A DNA stretch of 64,000 nucleotides from contig NC_060020.1 in NCBI RefSeq assembly GCF_021134715.1, positions 2,356,001-2,420,000 of the forward strand, in the 5' to 3' direction. The translations under genes and the position numbers were made by a program. Of this stretch, positions 13,660 through 19,400 are shown one piece after another. Numbering within the stretch: the stretch's first letter is position 1; each line of letters begins with the position of its first letter. The stretch is from Daphnia pulex (lineage: Eukaryota; Arthropoda; Branchiopoda; Diplostraca; Daphniidae). Below the pieces are notes generated by a model. That model did no database searches. It had not been told where the DNA came from and saw only the letters and a list, made by a program, of their open reading frames with translations.

Positions 13660-14760
13660 ATGGATTCCGACATACTCGAGAGTGGCTGCATTGCAATCGA
13701 AAAGAAATTTCGCAGCACTCAGCCAGTTCCTCCAACGCTATCACCTCGGTCGAGCGATCAGCAAACGGGCGAATGGAAGTTGGTTGTGCCAATGTCCAAG
13801 CGGTGATGCGGTAAGTGTCAAAACAAATTCCATGCATGTTTTCTGAGACCTTTTATGTCTGTTTTTTCTTCAGACGTTGGTGTTGCTGTTCTTAGCGACT
13901 TATTGCTTTATGCCGTTGGTGGCCATGACGGTCAGTCGTATATCTAAATAGCAAAGAACACTACGATCCTTAAACCAACTTGGTCGTCTGAGGTAGCGCC
14001 CACATGCCGCACGTGTGTCGGTGTAGCTGTTCTCTATGGTTATCTGTGTGCCGTTGGTGGCCAGGATGGCGTCAGTTGTCTTAAATATGTTGAACGCTAC
14101 GACCCAAAAGAAAATAAATGGAGTAAAGTCGCCTGTATGAACACTTGCCGATTAGTTGTAGCTGTTGCCGTCCTGGGTGGATACTTGTATGCTGTGAGTG
14201 GGTCAGATGGCCAGATTCCTCTTAACACTAGTAATTAATCTCTTCTTTTGATTTTCCTGTCGACAATGCTATTATTAAAATTTATTCATTTCTAGTGGGA
14301 AAATACGATCCACGTCAAAACAAATGGACTTTGGTTGCTCCAATGTCGACAAGAAAAAAGCAGTTGGGTTGCGCCGTGTACAACAACTGAATCTATGCCG
14401 TAGGTGGACGAGACGACACCACTGAACTCTCGTCAGCTGAGAGCTACAATCCTAACACCAACACATGCCAGTCCCATATTGGCAATGAGCTCAAGAATGA
14501 GTGGCGTAAGTTGTAATTGATTTTTTTCCTTTCAATGAAGCGAATTGGAGCTTTATTAATAAAATATTGTCGGACTTTCTGTAGGTCGGACTTGCCGTAG
14601 TCAATGGACAGCTATACGCAGTAGGTCGATTGAAGTCTACAATCCGGAGCAGAATCAATGGCGACTGTGTGTCACCGTAATTATCGGTGGCTCGGCGGTG
14701 GTGTGGTCCTTGTTAAATGCCTCAACACGAAACTCACTTGTGGTAACAAGAGCCGCAATC
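13660..14760 (+). pseudogene. KLHL20/diablo-like kelch-repeat pseudogene
   Basis: Successive kelch repeats are readable in shifting frames: 'WKLVVPMSKR', 'VGVAVLSDLLLYAVGGHDGQ', '[20 protein letters not shown]', '[15 protein letters not shown]', '[18 protein letters not shown]', '[19 protein letters not shown]', 'VGLAVVNGQLYAVG', 'IEVYNPEQNQWRLC'. Repeat order and wording match KLHL20 (Drosophila diablo), a substrate adaptor of Cullin-3 ubiquitin ligases. Breaks include a TGA after 'SKR' near 13804, a TAA/TAG pair near 13946, a TGA before 'IYAVGG' near 14387, and loss of part of the last repeats. Intron positions with GT/AG ends persist (13812-13873, 14231-14295, 14510-14584), so it arose by DNA duplication and not retroposition. 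The BTB and BACK domains are absent. Confidence 0.8.
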
Positions 14761-15241
14761 TGACTTGAAAATAAACCAGCCGAAGTTGCGTACCAACTTC
14801 GCCGGTAGGTAGTGTACATTATAAAAGTCTTTGAGTTGTTGCTTTTCCCCAAAAATCCTATTATTCTATGTATTTTTTTTTGTTTGAAAACTGAGCTTTA
14901 TTGGTTTTAGTTAATTGCTTTTAGCTATAGCAGTAACATTTCAAAGCTTTTTTGGGGGGCTATGATGTTTGTCCAACAATAAAAAAATGTCCAGGCTTTA
15001 AACTCTTGACTGATTTCAATTTCCTTTAAGACCACGAAAACACGATGGCGGTACAAATTTTTAAACCATACGTTATAGATATACAAGACCAGAAGTCTTT
15101 TTCTATTGGTCTAGACAAACTTCCAACCATGAGTCAATATATTCAGTTATACAGCTACTTTCCTGACGAGGGTGGGGACTTCAACGCTTTTTTGGGTTCA
15201 CTCTTGCTTCTTCAATAAGAACGATTGTTTGTGATTTTGAA
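14761..15241. other. 5' flank of the Rep-like gene
   Basis: A 57-codon open frame at 15045-15218 starts 'MAVQIFKPYVID' but does not join the downstream gene by any visible splice. I see nothing else supported. Confidence 0.35.
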
Positions 15242-17462
15242 ATGTACCAAAGTCATAGATTTGAGTGTGTGTTAAGTGATAGTAACCTATTATTCAGCAC
15301 GGTTGAAAAGTTGAAACTTGACAAAGAAGAGATTAGTTATTTAAAATGGAGCACCAGTGCCCTATACATCGAAACGAAAAACAAGAAGACACTTGCGTTT
15401 TTTAAAAAACATTACAGTCACCTAGAATTAATTCATATTTGTGAAACATCTTCTATTTCCGTAGATATGGTTATAGGAGAATATGGAATTGCAAAACCTA
15501 TCCGAATATCTGCTCAAAAGAAAACGGGTGACAGGGAAAAATTTAATTCTCTGTTCTTGGAAATCAGAGAAACGAAAGTCATACCCAATTTGCAAGAAGA
15601 TATTGATCACATTCTTGATCAGTCAAGTTACGAAAAAGTCTTCCAGCGGGCAAAAAAATTAAATTTCATGGAAAATTACAGTCTTAATCTCCGACCGTGG
15701 CAAAAAAAAGTGTTATCATCATTGTCTTCCCAAAGTAATCGTCAAATTCTTTGGGTCTTTGACCTAAATGGAAATAGTGGAAAGTCGAAATTAGCGGAAT
15801 ACTTAGAGTTTAAAAATTCTTACTACGGAATTTTACCAGGTAGGTCTTTTTTATTTTAACTGATATAAAAATGATAATTAGTCAAAATTTGAATCTGCGT
15901 TATCCGTTGTCACACCTACACTCGGAAAATGGTTCAGATAAAAGGTTTTCTACGAGGTTGAATAGGTTGAAGGCCGTGGAGTTTTGGGTCGACCTTGTTT
16001 TTTATAGGAAGGAAACAAGTCTTAGCTAAATTTGTTGTGCATGAAATACATAAACACAAATAGAGAACTCTAAAAACTGAAGCGATGACAAATCTGCGTG
16101 ATATCAGCCGAGCAGCGATCAGCGACTTTATTGAATATTTTGTGAAATTTTCTTTTTTTTTCGAAAAAGTGAAAATCAATTGTCGTGCCGCTGCCGCTTA
16201 GACCCTTGAGCATAGTCACGTTTCCATAGTTGGTCTGTCACCCAGCAGCGTTTCTCTTGAGCCCCGCTTTTTTAGATAGAATAAAAAGGGAAGAAAACGG
16301 AAGAATTTTGACTTATTGTACATTTCCTCCTTTTTGAGGAGGGAGGGGGGCTCACAAACGGTTGTGCTCGAATAAATGTCAAAATGGCATCAAATTATGG
16401 AAGATGATAGTGAGAAGCAATATATAGTACCATACGACCGTTTTGGATATTATTATATGTTGCATTTCGTTTATTTTTTCCAATTTTCCTCGGTATATTG
16501 TACAGTACACACACACACACACACACACATCTAATAATTCCTGACCATTACGTTTGAGTTGGGTGCCACAGGACATGTTCTCCGTCACTTCCACAAATGA
16601 CGGCGAAAAAAATTACGCCAAGTTCAAACTCAACAATTGAATGCCCAAGACTAAATTTTATTACAATTAAATATGAATAATAAGGTTACAAGATACGGTG
16701 AGAGAAATAACGAGACTCTGATATGTTTCACAAATAATCAGAATTGAATAGGAATTCAATTTCTTTTTCTTTCAATTAAATTCAGGATCAATGCACAATG
16801 AAGCTGGTCGCGTTGACGCGGAAGCACCTGGTTATTTTATGGATTTCTCCAGAGCAATAGCTTCCGACAGAAAAACAATGATACAAACATTTAATCTCAT
16901 AGAGTCTGTAAAGAATGGAGTACTTCGCTCGGGAAAATATGCTGGATCTTCAAAAATTTTGACTAATCGTAGTTTAGTAGTTTTTTCAAATTTTTTGCCT
17001 AATTTAAAATTTTTGAGTCTCGACCGTTGGCAGTTTTTTCATACAAAACTTGGAATTGTTTACATTTCTTGCGATGAGGTGTATGCTGGTAAACAATATT
17101 CTTGTTCAATAACTCGTGACTCCAATAAGTGTGATGTTCGAAGTAACGAGTTACCCTGGGCGGAGGGAGTAACTGATGAAGATTTAATAAAACAATATTT
17201 GGAAGTGTATAATGTAGATATTAATTTCAGAATGTTTTATGATAACGCCTTTGCTTTCATGCCTTTAGTAAGTAATGATCAAAAATCCAAGATAAGAAAA
17301 ATGATTCAAACTCGTAATCATTCCGCTTTATATGCTTTTGTAAAAGAAAATCACTGTTTTGATAAAGGTATTGTAACCCCAGAATTCATTAAAGACTATG
17401 GAATTTTTACACAATCAGAAGAATCTTCTGATAACGAAAACACTGTAAGCGAAACCGAATAA
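15242..17462 (+). CDS. Endogenous CRESS-virus Rep-like protein with SF3 helicase domain
   Basis: There are two exons, 15242-15839 and 16786-17462, separated by a 946-bp intron (15840-16785, gtaggt...ttcag) that preserves frame, giving a protein of about 424 aa. The helicase half has a Walker A loop GNSGKSK (15770-15790), a Walker-B-like 'YFMDFSR' (16833-16853), the 'SVKNGVLRSGKY' segment, and motif C 'VVFSNF' (16977-16994) followed by 'LDRW'. These are the superfamily 3 helicase features of Rep proteins from circular Rep-encoding ssDNA viruses and nanovirus-like replicons. Active Reps also have an N-terminal HUH nicking domain. Here no His-x-His and no clear YxxK are visible in residues 1-120, although length and topology are similar. 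The C-terminus is acidic. AATAAA lies at 17544-17549. An intron and host-type poly(A) signal suggest old integration and possible host use. Expression and activity are unknown. Confidence 0.7.
16505..16529. repeat. (CA)n microsatellite in the Rep-like intron
   Basis: About 12 CA units inside the 946-bp intron. The rest of the intron has no supported feature. Confidence 0.9.
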
Positions 17463-18204: not shown

Positions 18205-19400
18205 ATGGAAATTGAAAAGACAATGAAAATTTATCCCATAGAGTGCATTACGCCATACCATAAAAAGTAATTTATATGCCTACAATTTTTATTTGGATAA
18301 CCGTGTAAAATATGTTTTCTATTATTATTTGTAAATTACTGTACTGTTACTGTTAGTGTGCTGATAAGTTACCTGTAAGAAGTGGTTAATATGACTGATT
18401 TTTTAATCGTCTGCCTTTTCTTCAAAATAAAATTTTTCTAGTTGGGTAATGAAGGTAAGAGTGATTCAAAAATCACCAATAAGAACTTGGAGTAACGATC
18501 GGGGGCAGGGAAAACTTTTTTCAATGGATTTAATTGATGAAAGTGGGGAAATTAGGGCCACAGCTTTTAACGAAGAATGCGAGAAATTCTACTCATCAAT
18601 TAAGGTAAATAATTTTTTAAAGTATGGTAAATTTTAAAAATAAATCGAAAACTTCTTTTTAGGTTGACGAGGTATATTTTATTTCTAACGCTCAACTAAA
18701 AACGGCCAACAAGAATTTTTGTACTCTTAATAATGATTATGAAATGACTTTTGGAAGAACGACAGAGGTAATTTTTCTTTAGTTACATCAAGGTCTATGA
18801 AGTAATTTCAATTTATTTTGGTTTTTCATGCTGTAGGTCAGTCATTGCGACGAAGACTCTTCAGAAATTCCGTCAATCACGTTTGACTTCACATCCATCT
18901 CAGATGTTTTTAAAAAAGAAAAAGATAGCGTTATAGGTAACACAGATTTAAAACTTAAAAAAAATAGCCTGATAATGTTTAGTTTTCAATAGATGTGATT
19001 GGGAGGATAAATTTTGCTTCAGGAAAGTCATCTTATATTTGTCCTTTGACTCAAAAGGAAACCATATTCAGAGATATTCAACTAGTTTCAGAAGATGGAA
19101 CTAAAAAGGTAAAGAAAGTAATATATATTTTAAGGGACATTTAAAGAATTCGAAATATTTATTAAAGATAAATATAACGATTTGGGGAAACTTGGTAGAT
19201 GACGTTGATGTCGTCTCTAAACCTATAATTGCTTTTAAAAAAGTTAAGATTACAAATTCCAAAGTATTTGGAACATCTTTAAAAACAACTAGTGCTTCGA
19301 TTATAAAGGTAAATTGAGAAATTATATCTTAAAATTTTTAGTATATCTTTTAATGATATCTTTAACTTAGATCAATCCCAAAGGATTCTTACCTATGTAA
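18205..19400 (+). CDS. Compact RPA70-like ssDNA-binding protein (DBD-A and DBD-B only)
   Basis: The seven exons are 18205-18266, 18442-18604, 18663-18767, 18837-18936, 18993-19108, 19168-19308 and 19371-19400. They sum to 717 nt (238 aa) with all phases consistent and no internal stop. The N-terminus '[13 protein letters not shown]' then '[18 protein letters not shown]', '[20 protein letters not shown]' and 'NDYEMTFG' match OB-fold DBD-A of replication protein A large subunit. 'SITFDFTSI', 'DVIGRINF' and 'ITIWGN' match DBD-B. Aromatic positions used for stacking on ssDNA appear kept (F in 'KLFS' and 'AFN', W in 'TIWGN'). The N-terminal protein-interaction OB fold and the C-terminal zinc-ribbon DBD-C are absent, so it cannot form the normal RPA trimer core. 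It lies 742 bp downstream of the Rep-like gene on the same strand. It may be a neofunctionalised duplicate or part of a mobile unit. Confidence 0.8.

Follow-up and report, generated by a model that had tools for sequence, protein, structure and literature searches.

Viral replication proteins (Reps) join an HUH domain, which binds and nicks the origin, to a helicase part that forms rings and moves on single-stranded DNA with ATP. To our knowledge, takeover of genes from non-retroviral DNA viruses by animals is rare. The captured Reps of avipoxviruses, apvRep-1 to -5, derive from circular Rep-encoding single-stranded (CRESS) DNA viruses, have ratios of nonsynonymous to synonymous change (dN/dS) of 0.17-0.33 and keep their predicted structure; the HUH part is inactivated in all that have the domain and its tyrosine is lost in all but one, and the Walker A and B residues are kept (PMC10193959; this and the other papers are cited from excerpts). 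A dead nuclease with kept helicase motifs under purifying selection is therefore already published, in avipoxvirus Reps that the same paper likens to U94 of human herpesvirus 6 (HHV-6), a captured Rep whose nuclease motifs are inactive and whose helicase motifs are at least partly kept, but which is of parvovirus origin and carried by a herpesvirus. Here we report a gene that appears to share the CRESS origin, dead HUH domain and kept Walker A and B of the apvReps but lies in an animal chromosome rather than in a large virus: a Rep-like gene of Daphnia pulex, in a stretch of 64,000 nucleotides (the window; NCBI RefSeq GCF_021134715.1, contig NC_060020.1, positions 2,356,001 to 2,420,000, or C4:2356001-2420000 in our searches).

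Rep copies in chromosomes have also been described. Rep-like genes of circular single-stranded DNA viruses occur in the chromosomes of many eukaryotes, but unlike the Daphnia gene these copies, among which the excerpt names none of Daphnia, are said to have easily found Rep motifs (PMC3198968). The endogenous geminivirus (EGV) Reps of yam are likewise chromosomal, are transcribed and have been under purifying selection since integration, but they have canonical rolling-circle motifs, a plant host and a geminivirus origin (PMC5014472). In D. pulex and/or D. pulicaria, Rep-derived Circoviridae-like elements, which may include some of the loci described below, were reported as viral fossils; the statement in that paper that there was no evidence for exaptation concerns insertions shared among isopods, and the excerpt holds no test of the Daphnia copies (PMC4573495). 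No publication describing an animal Rep family that is spliced, under selection and dead as a nuclease was found, in a search outside which most subscription journals lie. The window gene probably derives from a CRESS-virus rep gene that Daphnia has kept for a use of its own, with nicking lost and helicase motifs retained, and an intact, apparently intron-bearing gene with kept motor motifs suggests that the host took it over for its own purpose. What computation shows here is the homology to Reps, the predicted folds, which motifs are lost and which are kept, the spacing across the intron, the paralogues and the codon-position bias.

The features of the locus are collected in Table 1. The positions that an earlier note on this DNA had given for the start codon, Walker A, both intron ends, motif C, the stop codon and the AATAAA hold; its Walker B is present, but had been placed at 16833. 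Both exons are open, with 199 whole codons in exon 1 and 225 in exon 2, counting the codon split by the intron. All four superfamily 3 (SF3) helicase motifs are present, namely Walker A, Walker B, motif C and LSLDRW, which we take to be the arginine finger. In the apvReps this finger is not fully conserved, whereas DRW is kept in the window copy (PMC10193959).

Table 1. Features of the Rep-like locus, in window coordinates
Feature	Position	Strand	Remarks
Rep-like gene	15242..17462	+	ATG at 15242, stop codon 17460-17462
Exon 1	15242..15839	+	open frame; degenerate HUH (Rep nuclease-fold) domain, linker, LRPWQ stretch, Walker A
N-terminal domain, residues 1-87	15242..15502	+	HUH fold predicted; H-x-H/Q, Y-x-x-K and FTLN all missing
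Walker A, GNSGKS	15770..15787	+	read from sequence
946-bp GT-AG intron, phase 1	15840..16785	+	GT at 15840, AG ends at 16785
Exon 2	16786..17462	+	open frame; remaining SF3 helicase, C-terminal extension, stop
Walker B, FMDFSR	16836..16853	+	read from sequence
SF3 motif C, VVFSN	16977..16991	+	read from sequence
LSLDRW, presumed arginine finger	17013..17030	+	LSHDRW in P0021, LSIDRI in P0025
KLG site	17053..17054	+	uninterrupted in window copy; short predicted intron in five paralogues
C-terminal extension, 135 residues	17055..17459	+	aligns with D. pulicaria P0009 to exon 2 residue 198
AATAAA	17544..17549	+	a single AATAAA in AT-rich DNA, weak evidence

That the gene encodes a Rep-type SF3 protein, as the earlier note held, is borne out by family and pairwise comparisons. 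Thirteen pieces of the window gene and its paralogues were combined into a profile, which at an E cut-off of 1 matched 22 proteins in a database of size 5.8 billion: one CRESS Rep (P0021, PF02407; E 6.6e-13), one named protein of D. pulicaria and 20 without a name. The named protein, P0009 (LOC124327718), is 97% identical over 34% of the profile's first row, which is the paralogue at C12:7.115 Mb. In pairwise comparison exon 2 matches the Rep of viral contig L046 (E 3.5e-5) and exon 1 the CRESS Rep P0025 (24/48 residues identical, single-comparison E 2e-11); a protein search with exon 1 returned only P0025 (E 0.015) and the window's own protein. Exon 1 also shares 72 of 193 residues with a relative, P0002, and exon 2 shares 68 of 193 with P0009, in an alignment that spans the helicase and continues beyond KLG into the C-terminal extension; the alignment of P0021 to exon 2 stops at DRW and leaves the extension unaligned. 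Pfam gave 0 families for either exon at E up to 10, Viral_Rep (PF02407) being among those not matched; PHROGs gave nothing useful for single pieces, PDB no chain for exon 2 alone, and a PDB search with the family profile chance-level matches only. Two repeat proteins matched exon 1 in PDB and were dismissed as artefacts. Absences in the profile search mean little, because P0001, a protein nearly identical to exon 2 (over 223 columns, a single conservative replacement and a single codon missing), was unlisted there.

The earlier note had also claimed that helicase motifs were kept and nicking motifs lost, with no His-x-His in the N-terminal half, and a search of the first 95 residues for H-x-H/Q, Y-x-x-K and FTLN was indeed empty. 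Its further proposal, conversion to a helicase-only host protein, stands as to Rep origin and motif loss but not as to helicase-only, since the C-terminal extension is conserved and exon 1 is still predicted to adopt the Rep HUH fold, though without the catalytic motifs (mean predicted local distance difference test score, pLDDT, 75.6). The nuclease would therefore be dead rather than deleted. Set beside CRESS Reps, the gene thus has sequence homology and a predicted HUH-fold N-terminal domain and lacks the HUH/HUQ and YxxK motifs. A model of P0002 (alignment of 15 rows, P0021 among them; mean pLDDT 72.5, predicted template modelling score, pTM, 0.52) had 267 BFVD matches at E up to 0.001, and among the best 50 all named ones are Reps; viral Reps match over about 300 columns (best E 4.6e-15), with template modelling (TM) scores of only 0.40-0.52. 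In PDB the same model matches papillomavirus E1 helicases (best E 3.6e-5). VIA-align of the whole A-type model found AAA+ proteins for residues 139-290 and was uninformative on the N-terminal domain.

Could the nuclease have been lost before the gene arrived? Repeated arrival of the copies from a viral or mobile source, with a Rep-like protein already lacking the nuclease, is improbable. Nicking motifs are missing in all 12 Daphnia N-terminal pieces (some partial or from the same gene), but HxQ and YxxK are present in all four CRESS Reps compared; the short predicted intron at KLG, common to five paralogues, and a tree that places the Daphnia rows on one side in 86% of bootstraps (built from 14 rows over 100 columns, with 7 of its 11 inner branches left open and long branches that meet) also count against it. 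The adjacency of the A-type copies L017, L018, L021 and L030 to a divergent second gene or its DNA, like the rep/cap arrangement of small viruses, speaks in its favour. Viral-contig scans with exon 2, P0021, P0025, P0002 and P0004 found no relative, a weak point against it, as the scans were insensitive: they missed the CRESS Reps of L042 and L046, which came to light through a DNA pattern for W..FTLNNY (13 stretches, of which these two encode CRESS Reps) and which tblastn matched to P0002 and P0004. These two Reps, at L042 6476-7354 and L046 4849-5736 (both on the minus strand), have intact motifs and lie on IMG/VR contigs of 12.5 and 22.4 kb, lengths that exceed the usual CRESS genome size.

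Own-genome searches, which covered 133,188,837 bases in 13 contigs, revealed that the gene is no lone copy but one of at least 11 loci (all locus counts are lower bounds): C4:2.371 (the window), C12:7.115, C12:5.148, C12:5.246, C3:2.929, C2:11.501, C7:5.411, C9:4.006, C9:4.132, C10:6.906 and C10:7.876 Mb. The other ten are broken, truncated or fragments, so the window copy is the only complete one among the loci found. C12:7.115 has a 337-codon open frame, yet just 17 residues of the C-terminal part found in its D. pulicaria counterpart; the remaining nine show stops or frame changes or are fragments, and some of the stops may be read-through introns. The ATPase motifs vary in relatives, with GNTGMT in L019, GNSGKN and LSMNRW in P0006, and P0005 failing the pattern. 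The DNA upstream of the window gene (14810-15241) is about 75% identical to that of a decayed copy, L022, and duplication therefore took place at the DNA level, presumed promoter included. Two pairs of loci share several kb (L021/L030, 84-91%; L028/L029, mostly 85-91%); as each pair lies on C9 they look like local duplications, and a transposon carrying the family was set aside, no dedicated terminal-repeat search having been made.

The divergent gene that adjoins A-type copies is apparently of two exons (L017 5420-6372, plus strand; L018 2996-3784, minus strand; also L028 and L029) and has no Pfam match above cut-off. C9 holds two more open copies (65-66% identity), one at 5.93 and one at 5.98 Mb, in stretches without a Rep-like match, whereas a search of C4 for the gene was empty. 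L018 990-1442 (minus strand), some 3 kb away from the C3 copy, resembles part of a MULE transposase (PF10551, E 0.00035, a match short of its cut-off).

The state of the paralogues bears on a second alternative, in which the gene is an endogenous viral element of the ordinary kind, dead, with frames that are open by luck and 946 bp that are an insertion, not an intron. We consider this unlikely, although all the loci found but the window copy are damaged or incomplete, part of the 946 bp (16272-16590) has a 70% match on C4 at 5.795 Mb, 3.4 Mb away, and elements resembling Rep were published for D. pulex and D. pulicaria as endogenous viral elements (PMC4573495). The junction zones (15791-15860 for GT, 16601-16840 for AG) offer 36 GT/AG pairs, of which 13 preserve the frame and a single one, the pair of the earlier note, gives the family Walker spacing, which is 38 residues from the Walker A Lys to the Walker B Asp in seven of seven uninterrupted relatives and is reproduced by the 15840/16785 splice. 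The frame-preserving 946-bp intron is thus well supported, and judged on sequence its assignment is better than chance. The donor reads CAG/GTAGGT, in agreement with the donor consensus. The intron is missing at this place in all copies that could be compared there. Poxviruses, as far as we know, are without introns, in contrast to the window gene. In L017, L018, L019, L020 and L030 a different, short intron is predicted to follow KLG, and the window copy has none at exactly that position; P0009, an NCBI protein seen as protein sequence only, reads KLG-HVGV, as though the KLG intron were spliced out. The shared predicted intron and this reading in P0009 would count for host ownership.

The open frame also argues against a dead copy, its 424 codons being free of stops where neutral change would give several. 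Simulated neutral substitution of the two exons, without indels, produced on average 3.3, 6.5 and 10.7 stops at 0.05, 0.1 and 0.18 changes per site, and 73, 8 and 0 of 2000 runs stayed stop-free. The frame was maintained while sister copies decayed, as expected of an exapted gene, and the contrast between open frame and decay in the earlier note was upheld, with some sign of selection. Coding positions have changed less than upstream DNA: in the alignment of L022 to window 14810-15682 the differences are 98/394 upstream and 25/132, 18/135 and 37/134 at codon positions 1, 2 and 3 (second positions versus upstream, Fisher p 0.005, in one partial comparison with a decayed paralogue). Of the 12 coding indels between these copies, nine have lengths not divisible by three; with the window frame open, L022 is the copy in which they most likely arose. 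Codon-position differences rank third > first > second in 17 of 17 Rep-like pairs, mostly with weaker contrast than in the helicases of L017 and L018 (0.15, 0.13 and 0.58 over 163 codons; 80% amino-acid identity, synonymous sites saturated); between the window and L017 they are 0.52, 0.38 and 0.58 over 188 exon 1 codons and 0.49, 0.35 and 0.64 over 80 exon 2 codons. Endogenous viral elements feed PIWI-interacting RNA (piRNA) pathways in some arthropods, which lends something to a third alternative, a locus used as a piRNA or small interfering RNA (siRNA) template against viruses with an incidental open frame, but the codon-position bias and open frame argue for selection on the protein and make it very improbable.

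For a gene kept by its host, we infer the following course. A CRESS-virus rep gene would have entered the Daphnia germ line, once in the simplest case, and would have lost its HUQ and tyrosine nicking residues early; the gene, with its C-terminal extension and spliceosomal introns, would then have multiplied and mostly been lost again, and of the copies found only that in the window survives complete. The product most likely forms an SF3 ring like that of viral Reps, with ATP-driven movement on single-stranded DNA, and the former nuclease domain would only bind DNA. Since the motifs for ATPase activity persist and the residues for nicking do not, the protein is most simply read as a motor whose head binds DNA without cutting it; its target could be host DNA or viral single-stranded DNA. 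The kept ATPase motifs also argue against a purely passive dominant-negative protein. Could the host use be restriction? Tentatively, a nicking-dead, ATP-driven Rep might join or mimic the Rep rings of infecting circular single-stranded DNA viruses, or else sit on viral origins and single strands, so that rolling-circle replication would stall either way; the birth and death of copies would then be an arms race.

Two neighbours in the window lie close to the gene. Roughly 1 kb downstream, and in the same orientation, begin pieces of a gene resembling that for the large subunit of replication protein A (18431-19314, plus strand; PF01336 OB fold, PF16900 REPA_OB_2), and this placing of a single-stranded-DNA-binding neighbour beside a single-stranded-DNA helicase may be chance. 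Upstream, Kelch-repeat pieces (13948-14763, plus strand; PF01344) belong to an apparently broken or fragmentary kelch gene.

If the proposed history is true, Daphnia holds a viral replication enzyme from which the risky DNA-nicking activity was removed and the motor kept, and clonal laboratory lines make its function directly testable. The combination of a dead nuclease and a kept helicase also in avipoxviruses and HHV-6 (PMC10193959) suggests that this may be a repeated route.
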